A stretch of DNA of 10,316 nt from the NCBI GenBank assembly GCA_012031955.1, contig JAAURZ010000041.1, positions 1 to 10,316 on the forward strand, read 5' to 3'. Below, piece after piece: positions 3,330 through 10,316 of the stretch. Origin of the DNA: Bacteroidia bacterium (GTDB lineage: Bacteria > Bacteroidota > Bacteroidia > Cytophagales > Cyclobacteriaceae). Below the pieces are notes generated by a model. The model did not search any database, had not been told where the DNA came from, and was given only the letters and a program-made list of their open reading frames with translations. The number at the start of each line of letters is the position of its first letter. Position 1 is the stretch's first letter. The position numbers and the translations under genes were made by a program.

Positions 3330-3815
3330 TTATTTTTCAATTACGGCTTTACCCGAACCTGTACTGACTCTGATTTCGATGTCTTTGTCGGATAGCCTGG
3401 CGGTTTTCCGTATGCGGGCGTTTCGCCCTTCGTCCAGTTCTTCCGTTTTGTCGAATTTGAAGGGCGCGAGTATCTCGCCATTGTTTTTGTTTGCCGTCAT
3501 CACTACGGTGCCTTCCATCTTGTTGCCGTTGTAGTTGAGTTTGGCGTCGCCCGAGCCACTGTTGATGGAAACATCGTACTGAAGTGCCGACTGCAGGGTT
3601 ATTGACACATCGCCGGAGCCCGAGTTGAAGGAACCTTTGCCCGCAAGCGTCAGGTCGGTGGCCTTGATGTTGCCACTCCCTACGTTGGCGTGAATTTTTC
3701 CGTTGGCGCCGCTGAGCCTTATGTTGCCGGAGCCGGCATTCACAGCGATGTCGCCTTCCGACGAAGTGATGTCGATACTGCCGGACCCTGTGTTGCCGTC
3801 AATGTCGCCCTTAGT
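3330..3815 (-). CDS. GSG-repeat protein, C-terminal segment
   Basis: After removal of one base the frame continues as TKGDIDGNTGSGSIDITSSE. The apparent start at 3743 is internal. The segment contains repeat units with N codons at 3794, 3740 and 3686, two longer units (about 3626 and 3563), and a C-terminal non-repeat part with ILAPFKFDKTEELDEGR followed by DIEIRVSTGSGKAVIEK. The last stretch is itself a degenerate GSG strand, typical of the C-terminus of this family. Confidence 0.75.
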   Translation of the reverse strand, partial: TKGDIDGNTGSGSIDITSSEGDIAVNAGSGNIRLSGANGKIHANVGSGNIKATDLTLAGKGSFNSGSGDVSITLQSALQYDVSINSGSGDAKLNYNGNKMEGTVVMTANKNNGEILAPFKFDKTEELDEGRNARIRKTARLSDKDIEIRVSTGSGKAVIEK

Positions 3816-3957
3816 GGTTTTGGAGCGTAATGTTGCCGGAGCCCGTGTTAATCTTCACGTTGCCTGTGATCTTTTGCAAATCGATGTTGCCCGAGCCGGT
3901 ATTCGACTTCATGGTGATGGCCACGTCGCTCACGTCGAGGTCTCCGGAACCCGTGTT
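3518..3957 (-). repeat. Coding repeat, 54-bp period (18-residue NxGSG units)
   Basis: Six consecutive units have N codons at 3957, 3903, 3849, 3794, 3740 and 3686. The spacing is 54 bp except 55 across the frameshift. Two longer units follow at 3626 and 3563. Similarity is mainly at the protein level, so this is a beta-solenoid-like repeat and not a recent DNA expansion. Confidence 0.85.
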
Positions 3958-4269
3958 GAAATTGAGATCGATATTGTCCGGAAGTGTCAACGTCCATTTT
4001 GAAGAGCCGGAGTGGTTTCGCCCTTCGAATTCTTCTTTCAATATCAGCGTTGTTCCCTCCTGCTCCAATACCGGTTTATACGTGTCCTTGTCGTACGTGT
4101 AGGTAAGTTTCACATTCACCTCGCTGCCTGTGCCCTTCACAATACGGCAACTGCCCGAGGCCGTGTTCATCTTGATTTTGCTAATTCCCGTAAAGGTCTT
4201 GTTCACCTCTTGCGCCTGAGTCTGTACGCTCAGCCAGAGCGCGCCGGCTATCATTAGTATCTTTTTCAT
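3811..4269 (-). CDS. GSG-repeat protein, N-terminal segment with signal peptide
   Basis: This is the first reading-frame segment, 152 codons ending LQNH at TAA 3813-3811. It carries the signal peptide, a beta-rich part (KIKMNTASGS, VKLTYTYDKD, KWTLTLPDNIDLNF) and the first three 18-residue repeat units starting at bases 3957, 3903 and 3849 and reading downward. The terminal NH is an artefact of the frameshift. Confidence 0.75.
   Translation of the reverse strand: MKKILMIAGALWLSVQTQAQEVNKTFTGISKIKMNTASGSCRIVKGTGSEVNVKLTYTYDKDTYKPVLEQEGTTLILKEEFEGRNHSGSSKWTLTLPDNIDLNFNTGSGDLDVSDVAITMKSNTGSGNIDLQKITGNVKINTGSGNITLQNH
3816..3821 (-). other. Frameshift in the GSG-repeat gene (one extra base)
   Basis: Coding-strand text is CTC CAA AAC CAC TAA. 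Deleting one A from the A4 run gives LQTTKGDIDG, or one C from CC gives LQNTKGDIDG. Either makes the interrupted repeat exactly 18 residues long like its neighbours, whereas adding two bases would make it 19. Confidence 0.82.
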
Positions 4270-4327
4270 AAAGGTTGGATATAGTTGTTGAGCCAAAGAC
4301 CTTATCCGGCAGGCAGAGGTTGCATGG

Positions 4328-5758
4328 CTACTTCATTTCCTTCACAAGTTTCCCCAACGTGCGGATGCCGTCCTCTACCTTGTCGCTCCACGGCTCGCCA
4401 TAGCAAAGCCTGAAGCAGTTGTCGAACCGCGACTGCGACGAGAATATCTGGCCCGGCGCAATGCCAATGTTATTTTTAAGCGCCTTTTTGTGGAGCTTGT
4501 ACGCATTCACTTTCCTGTTCATTTCGATCCACAGCGCGAAGCCGCCCTGGGGACGAGTAAAGCGTGTGTCTTCCGGAAAATACTCGGAGATGGCCTGAAT
4601 GTATCGCAGCGACTGTGTGTGCAGAGCCTTGCGCAAATGGCGCAGGTGCAACTCATAGCGACCGTTTTTGAGGAAGTGCGCAATGGCCGCCTGCGTGAGT
4701 GTGTTGGTGGACACGGTGTTCATGCGCTTGAGGCGTATCACCTGGTTTTTGAACCGCCCCGGTATGGCCCACCCGATGCGGTAGCCCGGCGCCAGCGATT
4801 TGGAGAACGAACCGCACGACAACACGAGCCCTTTTCTATCGAAGCTTTTGCACGTGCGCGGCCGCGTCTTGCTAAAGTATAGCTCACCATAAATGTCGTC
4901 TTCGATAAGCGGAATTTCCTTCTTTGCCAGCATGTGCACGAGTTGCTTCTTGTTCTCGTCTGGCATGCAACTGCCGAGCGGATTATTGAAGTTGTTCACA
5001 AAAAGGCACGCCTTGATGTCCAGCCGCCCGATGGCCTCGTCGAGGAAGTTCAGGTCGATGCCTGTTACCGGGTCCGTTGGTATTTCAACCACCTTCAGTC
5101 CGAGGTGCTCCATTACCTGGAATATTGCGAAATAGGTTGGGCTTTCAATGGCCACGGCATCGCCCGGCTTGGTTACCGCCCTCAGACAAATCGCCAGGGA
5201 TTCCATGCAGCCCGCCGTCACCACGATGTCGTCTTCTGTAAAGGTACCGCCCCAGTTAAAGGCCTGCCGCGCAATTTGCTTGCGCAGCTCCTGGTTGCCT
5301 TGTATCTCGTCGTAGTTGAGACATGAGTATTTGGAATCGCGTATCGCCTGCACCACCGCTTTGTTCAGCTTGGCGGCCGGCAACAGTTCGATAGATGGTG
5401 CCGCCATCGAAAAATTGAGAAGCGTCTCTGAATTCAAATCTTTGTAGACACTCGCAATCATTTCATCCACGCTTACCGGCACCGCGTCTTCAGGTGGCTC
5501 GCATGTGGTAGGAAGTTCGGGCGCATGCGCAGGTGTAAACTTCACATAGTAGCCCGACTGCGGACGCGCTTCGATCAGTCCCTTGCTCTCCAGGTAGTAG
5601 TACGCTTGAAACGCCGTGCTCAGGCTTATGCCCTGCTCCTTGCTGAGTGCGCGCACCGACAACAGCCGGTCGCCCACTTTCAGCACTTCATTTTCAATCA
5701 GGTGCTCAATGCGCTCAGCCACCTCCATGTATTTGTGTTCGGGTATCAGGGTTTCCAT
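4328..5758 (-). CDS. MocR/PdxR-type regulator: GntR helix-turn-helix fused to a PLP aminotransferase-like domain
   Basis: This is a 476-residue cytoplasmic transcription factor. Residues 1-75 are a GntR winged helix (VGDRLLSVRALSKEQGISLS, then AFQAYYYLESKGLIEARPQSGYYV). Residues about 110-470 are an aminotransferase class I/II fold with the PLP-binding lysine K320 in SFSKSLAPGYRIGW, D288 in EDDIYGEL for the pyridine nitrogen, N259 in FNNPLG, and ESPTYF. The Arg in FRLCYGEPW is the likely carboxylate-binding residue. In this family PLP plus an amino-acid-like ligand modulate DNA binding and the enzyme activity is usually secondary. Its own upstream region holds a perfect TAnnTTTG box overlapped by a palindrome, and part of that sequence recurs upstream of the EamA gene near 9768. 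This suggests autoregulation and control of that transporter. The ATG at 5758 is the natural start. The effector is not predictable. Confidence 0.93.
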   Translation of the reverse strand: METLIPEHKYMEVAERIEHLIENEVLKVGDRLLSVRALSKEQGISLSTAFQAYYYLESKGLIEARPQSGYYVKFTPAHAPELPTTCEPPEDAVPVSVDEMIASVYKDLNSETLLNFSMAAPSIELLPAAKLNKAVVQAIRDSKYSCLNYDEIQGNQELRKQIARQAFNWGGTFTEDDIVVTAGCMESLAICLRAVTKPGDAVAIESPTYFAIFQVMEHLGLKVVEIPTDPVTGIDLNFLDEAIGRLDIKACLFVNNFNNPLGSCMPDENKKQLVHMLAKKEIPLIEDDIYGELYFSKTRPRTCKSFDRKGLVLSCGSFSKSLAPGYRIGWAIPGRFKNQVIRLKRMNTVSTNTLTQAAIAHFLKNGRYELHLRHLRKALHTQSLRYIQAISEYFPEDTRFTRPQGGFALWIEMNRKVNAYKLHKKALKNNIGIAPGQIFSSQSRFDNCFRLCYGEPWSDKVEDGIRTLGKLVKEMK

Positions 5759-5770
5759 AGTTCGGAGGTA

Positions 5771-5805
5771 TTGATCTGATCAAAATTACAAAAATTAGAA
5801 CTGTT
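5771..5805 (+). promoter_or_regulatory. Candidate MocR operator, copy 1 (own promoter)
   Basis: This is a 35-bp element beginning with the perfect odd palindrome TTGATC-T-GATCAA (5771-5783) and ending with AACTGTT (5799-5805). It is 26/35 identical without gaps to 9768-9802. It covers the putative core promoter of the MocR gene, a position expected for autorepression. CTGATC (5776-5781) and, just outside on the other strand, CTGGTT (5817-5812) resemble the CTGG-type half-sites described for some MocR regulators. Confidence 0.55.
5781..5788 (-). promoter_or_regulatory. Putative -7 box of the MocR gene (TAATTTTG)
   Basis: This is an exact match to the Bacteroidota -7 consensus TAnnTTTG on the coding strand, 22 bp before the ATG. 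A TTG lies 22 bp upstream on the same strand as a possible -33 remnant. The box overlaps the right arm of the TTGATCTGATCAA palindrome. Confidence 0.5.
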
Positions 5806-5850
5806 CGGTTCAACCAGACCCGCGCTTTATCCGAATCATCGGTGCGCAAG

Positions 5851-6537
5851 TCAGTGTAAGATCGGCTCGCCGTTGGCGTTGGTGGTGAGCGCGGTGGACA
5901 TATAGTCGAAGAAAGGCCGGATAGCCTTGTAAGTCCGGTTCACTTCCTTCGCGAAACCGGGTGCAAGCACTTCGGCATCGCTGAATTTTCTTTCAAACCA
6001 GAACTGTTTGAACCGCAACAGGTCGATGGCAGGGTGTTGTTTGGAGAACCCTTTCGGTGCTGTTTTCACTTGGTCACCGGTCATGCCGCCAAATGTGGAT
6101 GCGATCTGTTTCTTCTTCAAAAGTGTTCTCCACTCGTCAGCGTTCAGGTCGATGTCCTCGCGAATCCGTTTCAGGTCGGCGGGATTCGGATAGGTGAACC
6201 CGCATCCAACGCGCGACGCGCCTGGCTTGATCCAAAAATAATAGCCGCCACGAAGCAGCGGCTTCACACGTTTCAGATGGCCGGCAAAACGCGCGTTGTA
6301 CGGCGTTTTGTCGGTAGAGAACCGCACGTCGTTGTAAATTCGATAGAGTGCTTCCTTCCCCGTCTTGGTTTGCAACTGATCGTGTGCGTTCATCAATACG
6401 ATCACGTTGTCCACCCATTCCGCCATATTCTGTTGGGCGTCGAGGTAGCGCTGCTTGTTTTGTTGAAACCACTCACGGTTGTTTTTACGCGCAAGGTGCT
6501 TGAGAAAATCAAATGTCTCTGTTTCGATCCGTATCAT
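5851..6537 (-). CDS. DUF2461 family protein
   Basis: This is a 228-residue protein of the DUF2461/TIGR02453 family, whose biochemical role is unknown. The family signature is clear: an N-terminal TFDFLKHLARKNNREWFQQN, then YRIYNDVRFSTDKTPYNAR, then GGYYFWIKPGASRVGCG, and a C-terminal region with KGFSKQHPAIDLLRFKQFW. There is no signal peptide or membrane segment, so it is cytoplasmic. The start is the ATG at 6537-6535; a TTG two codons earlier is less likely. It begins 15 bp after the stop of the methyltransferase gene on the same strand, so the two are probably cotranscribed. Confidence 0.92.
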   Translation of the reverse strand: MIRIETETFDFLKHLARKNNREWFQQNKQRYLDAQQNMAEWVDNVIVLMNAHDQLQTKTGKEALYRIYNDVRFSTDKTPYNARFAGHLKRVKPLLRGGYYFWIKPGASRVGCGFTYPNPADLKRIREDIDLNADEWRTLLKKKQIASTFGGMTGDQVKTAPKGFSKQHPAIDLLRFKQFWFERKFSDAEVLAPGFAKEVNRTYKAIRPFFDYMSTALTTNANGEPILH

Positions 6538-6552
6538 GCACAACTCCCGTGT

Positions 6553-7320
6553 TCAATTCTTGGTTACGTGGTATATAATCTCCGGTGTTATACCCATGGC
6601 GTACCGCTGCTCTTTTGTGAGTGAGTAAGCCAGTCTGTCTTCATTTACAACAAACCCTGCGTCGCGCAGCCGGCCGGGGTAGTCTTTACCATACATGCGC
6701 ACGTGATCCGACTGTCCGAACGCTTTTTCTCGTTCCTTGGGATCGGTGATCGTCTTGTCTTCGTACGTTACGTCAGGCACCGGGTTAAAAAAAGGTACGA
6801 GCAAAATGGCGTTACCGCCGGGCTTCAACACTCTTTTAATTTCACTTAGTGCCTTCCTGTCGTCGTCGACATGTTCGAGCACGTGGTTGCAAAGCAGAAA
6901 ATCAAACCGGTTGTCTTCAAACGGCATGTGGTGTATGTCCATCTTCACCTTGGCCAGCGGCGACTCAATGTCGGCAGTGATGTAGCCGTCGTGATGTACA
7001 GCTTCAAATCTTTTCATGAAACACTGTTCGGGCGCTATGTGCAAAATTTGTTGCGGCGCATCAAAGAAATCGGAGCGCTCGCGCAGGAAGAGCCAGATAA
7101 GCCGATGGCGTTCCAGCGACAGGCACGCGGGGCACAGCGCATTGGGCCGCGGATCAAACCGGCCATAGGGCAGAAATTTTCTGTACGAATGTCCGCATAT
7201 AGGGCACGTTACTTCATTGCCCGCCATAAAAACGCCCACAATCCGCAGCCCAAACCCACTCACAAGCTGAAGGTATTTGCGGGGTATGAACCTTATCAAA
7301 AGAGAGATCAGTTTGCCCAT
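6553..7320 (-). CDS. Zinc-ribbon class I SAM-dependent methyltransferase
   Basis: This is a 255-residue predicted methyltransferase. Residues 1-32 are basic and hydrophobic (LISLLIRFIPRKYLQLV), possibly a membrane-associating helix. Residues 39-66 hold two CxxC pairs, C39-P-I-C42 and C63-P-A-C66, a typical zinc ribbon. The Methyltransf_11-type core follows: ILHIAPE (92-98) in the place of motif I, FLLCNHVLEHV (141-151), and RVLKPGGNAIL (163-173). The acceptor is unknown; similar proteins occur in carbohydrate and surface-polymer loci, but nothing here fixes that. I took the ATG at 7320 because the longer frame to 7512 would translate a transcription terminator and overlap the preceding gene. 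It appears to be the first gene of a unit with the DUF2461 gene. Confidence 0.88.
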   Translation of the reverse strand: MGKLISLLIRFIPRKYLQLVSGFGLRIVGVFMAGNEVTCPICGHSYRKFLPYGRFDPRPNALCPACLSLERHRLIWLFLRERSDFFDAPQQILHIAPEQCFMKRFEAVHHDGYITADIESPLAKVKMDIHHMPFEDNRFDFLLCNHVLEHVDDDRKALSEIKRVLKPGGNAILLVPFFNPVPDVTYEDKTITDPKEREKAFGQSDHVRMYGKDYPGRLRDAGFVVNEDRLAYSLTKEQRYAMGITPEIIYHVTKN

Positions 7321-7400
7321 ATTCCGGCAAATAAAGCAAATTTGAACGCAACGGCCGCATCCCGCGGAATACTTGGCTTCATTCAAATTCACCCCGCCGC

Positions 7401-7430
7401 CAAACAAAAAGCCGCGACGTGCGCGGCTTT
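7401..7430 (-). terminator. Rho-independent terminator downstream of SRPBCC gene 1
   Basis: On the minus strand a perfect 9-bp stem, AAAGCCGCG / CGCGGCTTT (7430-7422 with 7416-7408), with a 5-base loop is followed by TTTTTGTTTG. It lies about 58 bp after the SRPBCC1 stop at 7488 and about 80 bp before the methyltransferase start. It therefore separates the two transcription units. Confidence 0.85.
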
Positions 7431-7487
7431 CCGTGAAAAACATTTCTCTCAAACAGTATAACGGACAGGCGTTGCCTTTCCACCGAA

Positions 7488-7988
7488 TCAATGCGCCCTG
7501 TCGAGTTGCCATTTTTCGACAATGGATGCATTAAAACCTTTGCCCTCCCTGGGGTTGGGGCTGCCCTGGCCAGTGGTGATCAGGTCGTGTAGACTAGTCT
7601 CGATGTAGTTGGTCCAGCCTTCCTGGCATATCTCGAAACACTCGTAGTCGGGTACCAGTCCCACATGGGTAAACCGCAGTAGCGTCTTGTCATTCTTCCG
7701 GTCGATTTCAAACCTGATCTTCGTGCCTGTCCATTCCTTTTTGTCCTTCGTAAAGCTGAAATGGTTATTCAATACCAGCCACTCGACTTTCTTCGCGGGC
7801 ACCAGTTCCGTGATCTCTATTCTGCAAATGTGAACGTCCTGATACTGATAGGTGAACACGCTGTTTGCCGTGTCCGTGCTACCGTCCACTTGCTGCGACC
7901 ACCAGCCACGCACGTTGTTGATAGCATTAAACACTTCATCCGGAGTCTGGTCGACCACGATGGTGGTAGTAAAATCTTTTTGTGTCAT
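7488..7988 (-). CDS. SRPBCC / AHSA1-like protein, copy 1
   Basis: This is a 166-residue START-like (SRPBCC) protein of the kind annotated as activator of Hsp90 ATPase 1-like. The fold forms a hydrophobic ligand cavity; the ligand is unknown. Family marks are the opening beta-strand with TPDEVFNAINNVRGWWSQ, then KEWTGTKIRFEI, then LLRFTHVGLVPDYECFEICQ followed by GWTNYIETSLHDLITTG. It is a close paralogue of the protein at 9121-9579 but has about 15 additional C-terminal residues. Two cysteines in ECFEIC are kept in the paralogue as ECYKDC. It is divergent from the GlxA-type regulator with 132 bp between the starts, and has a perfect -7 box and a candidate operator in that interval. Confidence 0.9.
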   Translation of the reverse strand: MTQKDFTTTIVVDQTPDEVFNAINNVRGWWSQQVDGSTDTANSVFTYQYQDVHICRIEITELVPAKKVEWLVLNNHFSFTKDKKEWTGTKIRFEIDRKNDKTLLRFTHVGLVPDYECFEICQEGWTNYIETSLHDLITTGQGSPNPREGKGFNASIVEKWQLDRAH

Positions 7989-8015
7989 AGATGTATTTTG
8001 ATTTTTTGTGCTTCA

Positions 8016-8023
8016 CAAACCTA
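8016..8023 (-). promoter_or_regulatory. -7 box of SRPBCC gene 1 (TAGGTTTG)
   Basis: This is an exact TAnnTTTG on the coding strand, 27 bp before the ATG. No TTTG lies at the usual -33 spacing, which suggests an activator-dependent promoter. The shared AAATAGACTT element begins exactly 30 bp further upstream. Confidence 0.6.
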
Positions 8024-8043
8024 GTATCCGAACAGCGTTTATC

Positions 8044-8091
8044 GCCGGGGTAAAATAGACTTTGAAGTGGGTTGATTTGGACAATCCAAAT
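8044..8091. promoter_or_regulatory. Candidate GlxA-type operator, copy 1 (SRPBCC1/regulator intergenic)
   Basis: The order is GCCGGG (8044-8049), AAATAGACTT (8053-8062), TGGG (8068-8071) and GATTTGGACAA (8074-8084). The same order and nearly the same spacing occur at 9637-9678. The right end contains the perfect inverted repeat ATTTGGA-CAA-TCCAAAT (8075-8091). It is upstream of the SRPBCC1 promoter and overlaps the putative promoter of the regulator. Confidence 0.6.
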
Positions 8092-8095
8092 GCAG

Positions 8096-8103
8096 TAATT
8101 TTG
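8096..8103 (+). promoter_or_regulatory. -7 box of the GlxA-type regulator gene (TAATTTTG)
   Basis: This is an exact TAnnTTTG, 17 bp before the ATG at 8121. TTG at 8072-8074 is 21 bp upstream and may be the -33 element, which would put the 17-bp palindrome between the two boxes. The predicted leader is very short. Confidence 0.5.
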
Positions 8104-8120
8104 GTTGAAATGAACGACCC

Positions 8121-8591
8121 ATGAAGCACGTAACTATTGTAGTACCCGAAGGCGACACAAACCTGAGCAGCATCACAGGCACGTACGAGATATTGAAGGG
8201 CGCGCACAACCATTGGCTGAAATCTGGCAACAAGCCGATGATCGACATTTGCATCGCCGGGTTTATGTCGGAGCTTGCACTCGAGGGCGGCTTCTTTTCC
8301 ATACACCCTGTTAATATTGAAACGATCCGACACACTGACCTGCTCGTAATACCTTCCGTTTCGCACGACTACAACGAGCTGATACAATCCAACCAGGCTT
8401 TGGTCGCATGGATCAGGGACCAGTACAAGCAGGGCGCCGAAGTAGCCAGCATGTGCTCCGGCGCATTCCTGCTCGCCGCCACCGGACTATTGGACGGCAA
8501 GACTTGCTCCATGCACTGGAACAGGATTGATGAGTTCAGGCGACGGTACCCCCAACATCAAAGTTGCCGAAGACAAGATCATCAGCGATGA
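8121..8591 (+). CDS. GlxA-type regulator, N-terminal segment (DJ-1/PfpI domain)
   Basis: This reading-frame segment encodes the sensor domain from MKHVTIVVPEGDTNLSS to HWNRIDEFRRRYP (144 genuine residues). The last dozen residues (QHQSCRRQDHQR) are out-of-frame translation. The ATG at 8121 directly precedes the first beta-strand. Confidence 0.78.
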   Translation: MKHVTIVVPEGDTNLSSITGTYEILKGAHNHWLKSGNKPMIDICIAGFMSELALEGGFFSIHPVNIETIRHTDLLVIPSVSHDYNELIQSNQALVAWIRDQYKQGAEVASMCSGAFLLAATGLLDGKTCSMHWNRIDEFRRRYPQHQSCRRQDHQR

Positions 8592-9102
8592 GAGCGGCAT
8601 TTACACCAATGGCGGTGCCTACTCCTTTCTCAACCTGGTATTGTATCTCGTAGAAAAACTTTTCGACCGCCCTACTGCCATCTTCTGCTCAAAGCTTTTT
8701 CAGATCGACATTCAGCGTACCACGCAATCGGCGTTCTCGATCTTTCACATTCAAAAAGGCCACGGCGACGAGCTGATAGGCAAGGCACAGACATACATTG
8801 AAGAAAACATCGATGCGAAGATATCCTTCGAAAAACTGGCTTCCGATCTGGCAATCAGCCGACGCAACTTCGACAGGCGTTTCATCAAAGCCACCGGCAA
8901 CACACCGGTCGAATACTTGCAGCGTGTGAAGGTAGAGGCCGCAAAGAAGGAATTGGAAAGAGGTCGCAAAACGGTGTTCGAAATAATGAACGACGTTGGG
9001 TACTCCGACGACAAAGCCTTCAGGGAAGTATTCAGAAAAGTGACAGGCCTCGCTCCCCTTGAGTACAGGGCGCGGTACAACAAAGACGCCGTAGCCGCGT
9101 GA
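8527..9102 (+). CDS. GlxA-type regulator, C-terminal segment (AraC DNA-binding domain)
   Basis: Genuine homology starts at about 8554 with NIKVAEDKIISDESGIYTNG; the TTG at 8527 is an artificial start. The segment holds the end of the DJ-1-like domain (GGAYSFLNLVLYLVEKLFDR), a linker, and the complete AraC-type DNA-binding domain. It ends with KDAVAA. Confidence 0.78.
   Translation: MMSSGDGTPNIKVAEDKIISDESGIYTNGGAYSFLNLVLYLVEKLFDRPTAIFCSKLFQIDIQRTTQSAFSIFHIQKGHGDELIGKAQTYIEENIDAKISFEKLASDLAISRRNFDRRFIKATGNTPVEYLQRVKVEAAKKELERGRKTVFEIMNDVGYSDDKAFREVFRKVTGLAPLEYRARYNKDAVAA
8549..8553 (+). other. Frameshift in the regulator at a C5 run (one extra C)
   Basis: TAC CCC CAA CAT reads YPQH and ends the homology. 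With four Cs it reads TAC CCC AAC ATC, giving YPNIKVAEDKI, the expected continuation of GlxA-type proteins. Confidence 0.87.
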
Positions 9103-9120
9103 CGGCACGGCTCACTGAGA

Positions 9121-9579
9121 CTACTGCTTGTGCGCTTCCAGTTTTTCGGGAATGCCTTTGCCTGTTGTGATAAGCTGACGCAGGCTTGTTGCAATGTAGT
9201 AGCTCCACGCATTCGAACAATCCTTATAGCATTCAACATCGGGTACGAGACCAACATGGGTAAACCGGAGTTGCGTTTTGCTCCCTTTCCCGGAGATCTC
9301 GAAACGGACCTCCGTGCCTGTCCACTCCTGCTTGTCGCGAAGGAAGCTGAGGTGGCTTTCGGTGATCAGCCAGACTATGCTCTTGTTGGGTACCACTTCA
9401 GTGAGTTTTTGTTTTGAGAAATGTATATCTTCAAACTGAACGGTAAACTCGTCGTTCACCTCCCGGCATTGTCCCTGCATGTTTTCCGTCCACCATTTGG
9501 TAACACTGGCGATGGCGTTAAAGACTTCCTCCGCGGATTGGGTCACTTCGAAAGCGACTTCGTAATTTTTGTTTTGCAT
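9121..9579 (-). CDS. SRPBCC / AHSA1-like protein, copy 2
   Basis: This is a 152-residue START-like protein, paralogue of the one at 7488-7988. Shared blocks are EVFNAI followed by a WW pair, KxEWTGT with RFEI, LRFTHVGLVPD-EC with a second Cys, and LITTGKGIP at the C-terminus. The ligand and function are unknown. The start is the ATG at 9579-9577 because the alignment with copy 1 begins there; the frame is open to 9789 but that would translate the promoter region. It converges with the GlxA-type regulator and is divergent from the EamA gene. Its promoter has the same architecture as that of copy 1, so both may answer to the same regulator. Confidence 0.9.
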   Translation of the reverse strand: MQNKNYEVAFEVTQSAEEVFNAIASVTKWWTENMQGQCREVNDEFTVQFEDIHFSKQKLTEVVPNKSIVWLITESHLSFLRDKQEWTGTEVRFEISGKGSKTQLRFTHVGLVPDVECYKDCSNAWSYYIATSLRQLITTGKGIPEKLEAHKQ

Positions 9580-9609
9580 AAAGGCTTTTGTTTTAAAAAC
9601 GTTGCAATG

Positions 9610-9617
9610 CAAAACTA
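9610..9617 (-). promoter_or_regulatory. -7 box of SRPBCC gene 2 (TAGTTTTG)
   Basis: This is an exact TAnnTTTG, 30 bp before the ATG, again with no TTTG at the -33 spacing. As in copy 1, AAATAGACTT begins exactly 30 bp upstream of the box (9647 versus 9617). Confidence 0.6.
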
Positions 9618-9636
9618 TCCGGCCCGCCGGTTTCAG

Positions 9637-9688
9637 GCCGGGTGCGAAATAGACTTCCTCATTGGGCGATTTGGACAAAATGAGTCCA
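9637..9688. promoter_or_regulatory. Candidate GlxA-type operator, copy 2
   Basis: The order is GCCGGG (9637-9642), AAATAGACTT (9647-9656), TGGG (9663-9666) and GATTTGGACAA (9668-9678). The right part contains a weaker inverted repeat, TGGAC-7-GTCCA (9672-9688), in place of the perfect palindrome of copy 1. Confidence 0.58.
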
Positions 9689-9740
9689 CAGCGGCGCGGG
9701 ATGTTCTGCGGGATACTCAACCCAAGCAACCATATTCTGC

Positions 9741-9778
9741 ATCTGGTCCGGCGCGAAAAACTCGAAATTGATCTGGTC
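9741..9778 (+). repeat. Direct repeat ATCTGGTC, 30 bp apart
   Basis: ATCTGGTC occurs at 9741-9748 and 9771-9778, about three helical turns apart, upstream of the EamA gene. The second copy lies inside the 35-bp element shared with the MocR promoter. Paired direct half-sites are common for MocR-family regulators. Confidence 0.45.
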
Positions 9779-9802
9779 AAAAAACACAAAACTGAAACTG
9801 TT
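9768..9802 (+). promoter_or_regulatory. Candidate MocR operator, copy 2 (EamA promoter)
   Basis: TTGATCTGGTCAAAA at the left and AACTGTT at offset 28 match 5771-5805 in the same register. The element ends 31 bp before a TATAATTG sequence (9834-9841, one mismatch to TAnnTTTG) and 47 bp before the GTG start. That position suits an activator. Confidence 0.5.
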
Positions 9803-9849
9803 TTTTATCCGTATTTAAGGGAAATTTTGTATCTATAATTGTATCGCCC

Positions 9850-10316
9850 GTGAAGAAAGATCTACTAGCCTACACTGCTTTAGCTGCTGTTTGCCTCATC
9901 TGGGGCACCACCTACCTGGCGCTCCGTATCGCTGTGCAGCATTTTCCTCCGCTGTTATTTACCGGCATCCGACAGTCGGTGGCCGGGCTCCTGCTGGGTG
10001 GATTCATGTTCACCCTCGGCAAAGCCGCGTGGCCGGGTACCGCTCACGTTGTGCGGCAGGCTATCGGCGGCTTTTTTATGATTTCGCTGGGCAACGGCCT
10101 GGTGGCCTGGGCCGAAATGCACATACCCAGTGGCGTCGCTGCTGTAATCTGCTCCATGATGCCGGTGTTCGTGATACTGGTAAACCTCACTATCAATCGC
10201 GAAGAAAAACCAACCGTGCCCATCATGGTGGGCGTGTTGCTCGGCCTCGCGGGCATCATCATGATCTTCGGTGAAAATATCAAAGCGTTTTCAAAGACGG
10301 TAATAACCTGATGGGA
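9850..10316 (+). CDS. EamA/DMT-family transporter, N-terminal half (cut by window end, probable frameshift)
   Basis: This is an inner-membrane drug/metabolite-type exporter, substrate unknown. Five hydrophobic segments are visible at about residues 8-26, 33-55, 68-88, 92-112 and 122-142, with the usual IWGTTYLALRIA in the first and GLVAWAEMHIPSGVAAVI before the fourth, which together make one EamA domain. The family normally has two domains and about 300 residues. The start is GTG at 9850, because TM1 follows immediately and no ATG is nearby. The frame meets a TGA at 10309-10311. With one more A at 10293-10295 the text becomes AFSKDGNNLMG and stays open to the window edge, so the stop is probably an indel artefact. 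MocR regulators often control EamA exporters, and the upstream element shared with the MocR gene fits this. Confidence 0.8.
10293..10295 (+). other. Probable frameshift in the EamA gene at an A3 run (one A missing)
   Basis: As written the gene stops after one EamA domain. Adding one A changes AFSKTVIT-stop to AFSKDGNNLMG, a plausible inter-domain loop. Only 21 bases follow, so support is limited. Confidence 0.5.

Follow-up and report, generated by a model that had tools for sequence, protein, structure and literature searches.

A predicted MocR operator carried in separate copies by the regulator gene and a distant EamA exporter gene in a member of the Cyclobacteriaceae

A contig of a Bacteroidia bacterium of the family Cyclobacteriaceae (JAAURZ010000041.1, assembly GCA_012031955.1) carries two copies of a 35 bp element, one before a gene encoding a MocR-type regulator and one, 4 kb away, before a gene encoding an EamA exporter of the drug/metabolite transporter (DMT) type. 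The window analysed here is the whole stretch of 10,316 nucleotides. With good confidence, the element is read as the operator recognized by the product of the MocR gene at 4328-5758, which is predicted to be a GabR-like autorepressor and activator with a PdxQ-like regulon content. The conservation, specificity and geometry of the element and the partition of its boxes were computed here. Regulation of DMT transporters by MocR proteins is known in outline, and repression plus activation by a MocR protein from one operator has been studied best in GabR. An earlier note on this DNA had counted five genes between the two, and five gene units are found there (DUF2461, a methyltransferase, AHSA1, a DJ-1/PfpI plus AraC-HTH gene in two frames, and a second AHSA1). 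The predicted operator links the regulator with an exporter, a connection that the order of the genes would not suggest.

The earlier note had reported a gapless match at 26 of 35 positions between 5771-5805 and 9768-9802, and this was reproduced. Outside the AHSA1 paralogues it is the only direct alignment of this quality in the window (overlapping starts 5770/9767 and 5771/9768), and an equal pair was found in none of 40 order-2 Markov windows. The AACTGTT noted at offset 28 is present and is the distal half-site (AACAGTT on the minus strand), but the register had to be changed: the sites of relatives place it two bases away, at 5769-5803 and 9766-9800, both on the minus strand and identical at 25 of 35 positions. 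A matrix of 50 aligned sites of relatives, with the window excluded, gives both copies high scores (Table 1); the next best score in the window is -4.0 bits and the maximum in 5 Mb of simulated DNA is 9.3 bits. A sequence profile finds the same two copies, followed by a match at E 0.12. The first 15 bases alone, with up to three mismatches, match three times (shuffle mean 0.67; 8 of 200 shuffles reach three). By itself, the pattern inside the window is weak evidence. In both window copies the proximal half-site has changed from CAG to CAA (9766-9770 and 5769-5773), and of the 50 aligned sites the MocR copy of L010 alone has this change as well; it may stem from drift common to both copies, from co-evolution with the protein or from sequence error.

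A scan for the MocR protein yielded 80 loci that were kept. L001-L040, with 57-80% identity, form the discovery set, and L041-L080 have 46-50% identity. The earlier note had proposed that the element would be found in relatives and would be rare elsewhere in their genomes, and both expectations are borne out. By matrix search it lies upstream of 39 of the 40 MocR orthologues of L001-L040, gapless and of constant length. It is also upstream of all 12 EamA orthologues in the 12 genomes closest to the window, one of these sites being physically the same as the MocR site of L003. Specificity was counted in the genomes of relatives only. In the 12 close genomes all 22 profile matches with E ≤ 1e-4 are MocR or EamA sites, and the first match after these is partial (E 0.003). 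Chryseotalea (G003) has a single site, between divergent MocR and EamA genes, and G005 has the EamA site only. A simple pattern allowed one mismatch gives 44 matches in these genomes and its backwards-read control gives 6.

The profile scan of another 22 genomes of the family gave 35 matches with E ≤ 1e-4. Of these, 31 are MocR or EamA sites; four lie elsewhere, at G122:1487219 and G216:229831 and, in G171 and G198, just past the end of a gene termed gene X below. Other targets are found in the remaining 27 scanned genomes, as are a few weak matches, for example upstream of a GNAT gene in G035 (E 0.003). The site is specific enough for a regulon to be read from it across related genomes. The scores of the first matrix made from relatives are partly in-sample, as it was seeded with ten sites read beforehand. 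The profile scans were limited to the 150 top-ranking candidates of each genome, so that weak sites can escape them, as did the MocR site of G211, which only the matrix detected. A strict pattern recovered only 25 of the 39 known sites of L001-L040 and none in L041-L080.

In the orientation of MocR, the consensus is AAAACAG[AT]TTCAGTTTT..TAATTTTGAC[CT]A[GT]ATCAG[AT]T. The direct half-sites AACAGWT and ATCAGWT are 30 bp apart, or about three helical turns, within the constant 35 bp element, and columns G3, T5, A29, C31, A32 and T35 (element numbering) are invariant in the 50 aligned sites. Three boxes (1, 7 and 31) are all direct, and the consensus has no inverted CAGWT (no AWCTG). The CTGG-type half-site suggested in the earlier note was rejected on the alignment of relatives' sites: the conserved core is CTGWT, and of the two copies only that of EamA has CTGG, a part that differs from relative to relative. 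In 36 of 39 MocR sites of L001-L040 the same base stands at positions 4 and 34, the W of each half-site (11 T/T and 25 A/A, with 3 T/A; L005 left out), T/T being found in the window's clade and A/A elsewhere. Residue 67, in the wing of the winged helix, is Q in all 13 proteins of that clade, and the remaining 28 have K. These two patterns fit a single residue that would read both half-sites.

The -7 box of Bacteroidota promoters has been described with the consensus TAnnTTTG and a location at -12 to -5 (PMC9723704); by this spacing, transcripts would be expected to start near 9834 (+) and 5776 (-). The earlier note's placement of one copy over the core promoter of the MocR gene and of the other upstream of the EamA promoter agrees with the boxes found: the putative MocR -7 box falls within the operator, and the EamA copy is just 5' of a conserved TTTG -7 box. 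Read toward MocR, TAnnTTTG is present at element positions 16-23 with at least five of the six defined positions in 19 of 21 sites shared between divergent MocR and target genes, in 15 of 19 MocR-only sites and in 1 of 23 target-only sites. Because this box lies within the element, a bound MocR protein would cover its own promoter. Read toward the target, TTTG starts precisely 28 nt past the C in the distal CTG in 22 of 23 target-only, 18 of 21 shared and 3 of 19 MocR-only sites. Spacings of 27-29 nt account for 19 of the 21 shared discovery sites; other offsets have one or two, up to three in the MocR-only class. All 16 EamA-only sites of a first validation set, defined below, have TTTG at 27 or 28. 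The target -7 box is mostly A/G-A-nn-TTTG; a T opens it in only 4 of the 22 target-only sites and 1 of the 18 shared sites, and the distal half-site occupies the position expected of a -33 box. In the 21 shared discovery sites one operator overlaps the divergent promoters of regulator and target, as with GabR.

A variant of the site scores above 5 bits, with the matrix that excludes the window, before 37 of the 40 more distant MocR genes of L041-L080, among them those of Chryseobacterium, Sphingobacterium, Arenibacter and Emticicia. Many of the variants score between 5 and 12 bits, only close to or slightly over the 9.3 bits reached in simulated DNA, so that the persuasive point is the recurring layout: 36 of the 37 sites have CAG at positions 7-9, and 36 have TTTG at offset 28. 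A divergent frame is found near MocR in 39 of the 40 (none was called in L076). All were labelled 'not shared' by the script, the divergent genes being of other families, and are counted here by promoter. By Pfam these genes encode EamA in L041 (Chryseobacterium), GNAT in L048 and L049, ketopantoate reductase in L047 and L072, short-chain dehydrogenase in L043 and Pyridox_ox_2 in L056. The operator variant marks a predicted regulon family much wider in the Bacteroidota than the window's clade.

The sites differ in a systematic way at the middle box. In the discovery set, CAG at positions 7-9 (box 2) is present in 21/21 shared and 23/23 target-only sites vs 0/19 MocR-only sites. The class 'shared' was assigned there after the box pattern had begun to show, and hence was not blind; L012, at a contig edge, was put in MocR-only with no neighbour seen, and L021, also at a contig edge, was called shared from contig L207. 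Two validations followed. For the first, 22 of 51 MocR matches were new and had at least 60% identity, and the prediction was written before the sites were read; four of these genomes had no MocR site and one contig was too short. Box 2 is present in all 16 EamA-only sites, all three shared sites and both sites with one small gene before EamA. For the second, 30 of 49 MocR matches were new Chitinophagaceae with at least 54% identity, classed by script. Box 2 is in 18/18 shared sites; one genome had no site, and 6 of the 29 sites are identical to discovery sites. Several of the genomes in the validation sets nearly duplicate one another, and Fisher values for the discovery and first validation counts, which take related genomes to be independent, are overstated. 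With the three sets pooled and four extra sites left out, box 2 is found in 83/83 shared or target sites vs 7/42 MocR sites classed as MocR-only, away from EamA or 'not shared'. The sequences that replace it vary between genomes, as would be expected under relaxed constraint, and losses are seen in both the Chitinophagaceae and the window's clade. In addition, the MocR-only sites of L278, L283, L291, L295 and L298 (Chitinophagaceae) have TAG for CAG in the distal half-site, which seems less constrained for autoregulation.

A mechanism consistent with these patterns can be outlined. The two winged helices of a head-to-tail MocR dimer would bind the direct half-sites. In the putative ancestral state, one operator would lie between divergent MocR and target genes. 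Toward MocR it would cover the -7 box, giving autorepression; toward the target it would abut a weak -7 box at the fixed distance of 28 nt and replace the -33 region, giving activation. Both roles are assigned from site position, and the third direct box beside the distal half-site (CAG at 7-9) would belong to the target function, a role for box 2 in activation that we infer from its distribution. In the window's lineage the genes would have become separated, each with a copy, the MocR copy losing box 2 and keeping TAnnTTTG, and the EamA copy the reverse. The switch would probably be an amino compound that reacts with pyridoxal phosphate (PLP) on Lys320. The regulon would be an amino-acid, amine or vitamin B6-linked module of EamA with GNAT, OsmC, PhzF, LysE, DinB and aminotransferase genes. 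It is put forward as a plausible but tentative proposal, held less firmly than the assignment of the operator to MocR, that the element is a three-box switch in which boxes 1 and 3 shut the MocR promoter and box 2, 6 bp from box 1, is needed for the target, and that this switch was split repeatedly into repression-only and activation-only halves.

Several observations weigh against the operator interpretation and the mechanism outlined. Box 2 is present in 4 of 12 MocR sites away from EamA in the first validation, in 2 of 4 extra sites there that are beside neither MocR nor EamA, and in 3 of 11 'not shared' sites in the second. Six of the seven exceptions among MocR sites have another plausible divergent target, which was noticed only after the fact. 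In all four from the first validation gene X is divergent from MocR, with exact TTTG spacing in two and one changed base in two; in the second, L287 (by Pfam) and L293 (by resemblance) have another GNAT-like divergent gene, and L297 is the third. Conversely, L006, L009, L029 and G274 have a target-type TTTG without an exact box 2, and L056, with divergent Pyridox_ox_2 and TTTG, has CAA as box 2. The site before MocR is absent in L005 (Pseudochryseolinea; 1/40), in 4/22 of the first validation (G063, G054, G246 and G259) and in 1/30 of the second (L275), and MocR autoregulation would therefore be dispensable. The covariation of Q/K with T/A is absent from L041-L080 and may represent one event. 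A MocR paralogue in G033 (G033:C78) has a weak operator-like site directly before its start (L223:905-940, E 4.4e-4), so that cross-talk between MocR paralogues is possible.

Among other explanations, it is conceivable but unlikely that MocR represses both genes from the element and an effector relieves both, with no activation of EamA. EnuR, a MocR protein, is called a repressor (PMC8739950), and a single type of operator at both genes is compatible with common repression. However, target promoters are built like those that depend on an activator: the operator reaches to the -33 region, TTTG follows at the constant distance of 28 nt, and the T expected at the start of the -7 box is mostly missing. 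Repression of both genes would also hardly explain a box retained mainly at targets. Far less probable is control of both genes by another transcription factor or a MocR paralogue bound to the element. The element is tied to the window MocR by sequence comparison, and the weak site of the G033 paralogue has the same layout; against this, the element accompanies the orthologous MocR, and its variant the more distant kin, at nearly all loci. The next MocR-like protein of the 12 close genomes has no more than 22-25% identity, and at E ≤ 1e-20 one was detected in 5 of the 12. MocR dimers are reported to use direct half-sites spaced by two or three turns (PMC5320631).

Two further explanations have a negligible probability. 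Chance resemblance of A+T-rich promoter DNA is suggested by the G+C fractions of the copies (0.24 and 0.29) and by the first 15 bases, which alone are not rare, and was rejected on the Markov windows, the matrix and profile scans of relatives and the conservation. A recent duplication or a mobile repeat with no regulatory role would account for direct repeats about 4 kb apart, and is countered by conservation across families at a fixed promoter distance, with no further matches at E ≤ 1e-4 among those listed in the 12 close genomes.

The operator interpretation also draws on the arrangements of loci in relatives. One site between divergent MocR and EamA genes is present in Chryseotalea (L003) and in loci of Chitinophagaceae, Cesiribacter and Dyadobacter. 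The families of divergent targets were assigned by Pfam for representatives and by resemblance for the rest. With MocR, the shared site serves a divergent EamA gene in L011, L014, L019, L025, L028, L030, L036 and L037; GNAT followed by class IV aminotransferase in L015, L024, L031-L033 and L039; pyridoxal-dependent decarboxylase followed by EamA in L027; and a DinB-like gene in L035. Niastella and its neighbours have further sites before pyridoxal-dependent decarboxylase and class V aminotransferase genes, and the genes ahead of MocR there are presumably rpiA, which they resemble. In the 12 close genomes other than that with L003, MocR and EamA are 10 to 117 kb apart or on separate contigs. 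A change between the shared and separate states is needed at least four times on the MocR tree; separation would have occurred more often if it is irreversible, but no larger number of separations is claimed because recombination between direct-repeat operators could restore the shared state. G056 has an intermediate order: EamA, its site, gene X, a second site and MocR.

Downstream of EamA in eight neighbourhoods (L225-L232), GNAT is present in six of the seven with visible downstream sequence; OsmC, PhzF, LysE, DinB, class IV aminotransferase and Pyridox_ox_2 genes are also found. One protein of each family was identified by Pfam and the others by resemblance, and a Pfam search with a cupin-looking gene of L225 gave no match. 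Gene X encodes about 250-270 amino acids with a secretion-signal-like start and is divergent beside MocR in several genomes, often with a target-type promoter; it is probably a further target. Pfam searches with two of its proteins gave no match for either.

The operator copies 3' of gene X are at L271:1524 (G171), an apparent orphan whose EamA gene is 24 kb away with its own copy, and at L274:314 (G198), where the contig ends nearby. Extra operator-like sites at L266:1749 and L262:1336 (G122 and G216) adjoin neither MocR nor EamA.

The window MocR has both domains of the MocR subfamily (Pfam GntR PF00392, 3.1e-11; Aminotran_1_2 PF00155, 6.4e-36). Its PLP-binding lysine is the K of an SxSK motif, residue 320, and is invariant in 41/41 aligned orthologues. 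The EamA frame stops 5 bases short of the window end; frames in relatives have 306-374 amino acids. The AHSA1 paralogues (7488-7988 and 9121-9579), either side of the DJ-1/PfpI-AraC gene, are the strongest direct repeats in the window. Frame changes break genes at 1-2317 (presumably a DNA-polymerase-III-alpha-like gene), 3330-4296 (DUF4097), 8121-9102 (DJ-1/PfpI-AraC) and 10296-10311 (EamA), which suggests an error-prone assembly; both operators retain the exact 35 bp length.

Table 1. Coordinates of genes, operator copies, boxes and putative promoter elements; positions are those of the window unless a locus is named.
Feature	Position	Strand	Remarks
MocR-type regulator gene	4328..5758	(-)	476 amino acids; GntR winged helix and fold-type-I aminotransferase domain
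EamA/DMT exporter gene	9850..10311	(+)	first half only in window; Pfam EamA 4.4e-17
MocR-proximal operator copy	5769..5803	(-)	CAGTTCTAATTTTTGTAATTTTGATCAGATCAATA; 28.7 bits (scored over 5769-5807) with the matrix excluding the window; profile E 2e-9
Distal half-site (box 1) of MocR copy	5799..5803	(-)	CAGTT
Box 2 of MocR copy, element positions 7-9	5795-5797	(-)	reads TAA, lost; absent in the two-base-shifted register too
Proximal half-site (box 3) of MocR copy	5769..5773	(-)	CAATA in place of CAGWT
Putative MocR -7 box	5781..5788	(-)	TAATTTTG; inside operator, positions 16-23; 6/6 defined positions of TAnnTTTG
EamA operator copy	9766..9800	(-), reverse orientation relative to EamA	CAGTTTCAGTTTTGTGTTTTTTGACCAGATCAATT; 45.5 bits (scored over 9766-9804) with the matrix excluding the window; profile E 1.3e-10
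Box 2 of EamA copy	9790..9794	(-)	CAGTT, retained
Putative EamA -7 box	9822..9829	(+)	AAATTTTG; TTTG begins 28 nt after C of CTG half-site
Gene X frames in relatives	L273:271-1083; L244:997-1746		similar frames beside MocR in L006, L009, L029, L250, L271 and L274

The predicted operator gives the exporter a testable context, PLP-linked handling of amino acids or amines. The separated copies in the Bacteroidota can be regarded as natural mutants, which seem to assign one box to activation. A literature search (MocR with EamA; split bidirectional operators) turned up no account of this operator; the search did not extend to the supplement of PMC5320631, which might list it.

MocR operators are described as direct repeats two or three helical turns apart (PMC5320631), and the half-sites found here, 30 bp apart, are of this form. 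Three direct boxes represent a rare motif class in Table 2 of that paper (4 regulogs, 18 regulons), and the 6 bp step between boxes departs from the whole-turn spacing that it describes. TauR, a MocR activator, is reported to recognize CTGGACYTAA direct repeats with CTG (PMC5320631). The present element likewise has direct CTG-containing repeats, but its half-site is CTGWT; no taurine genes were noticed, though no search aimed at them was made.

GabR of Bacillus subtilis is described as an autorepressor and activator that acts, dependent on PLP, from a 41 bp region overlapping the divergent gabR and gabTD promoters (PMC9452892, PMC6522883). The predicted autorepressor and activator logic, the direct repeats and, in relatives, an operator over two divergent promoters are similar. 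Unlike GabR as described there, with an inverted repeat between two direct repeats, the element has three direct boxes; the predicted regulon consists of an exporter module, with the operator split over genes far apart. With the NCBIfam model for GabR (NF052285) the window MocR scores 130.7 bits (cutoff 600) and is not a GabR orthologue. With that for PdxR (NF052282) it scores 265.7 bits, below the cutoff of 320, yet this is the best-scoring model of all.

PdxQ and PdxW regulons have been reported to contain DMT or LysE transporters, PLP-dependent aminotransferases, a CsdA-family desulfurase, the acetyltransferase RimI and pyridoxamine phosphate oxidases, with a COG384 PhzF-like protein in PdxQ and OsmC in PdxW, and such regulators are described as rarer in Bacteroidetes (Suvorova and Rodionov, 2016; PMC5320631). 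In comparison with PdxQ and its PLP metabolic genes pdxO/pdxH, Pyridox_ox_2 is found only in L229 among the eight EamA neighbourhoods and as the divergent gene of L056. The window itself ends inside EamA; the gene content of relatives is PdxQ-like. As in the PdxQ and PdxW regulons so described, EamA, LysE, GNAT, PhzF, OsmC and class IV and V aminotransferase genes are found in these relatives.

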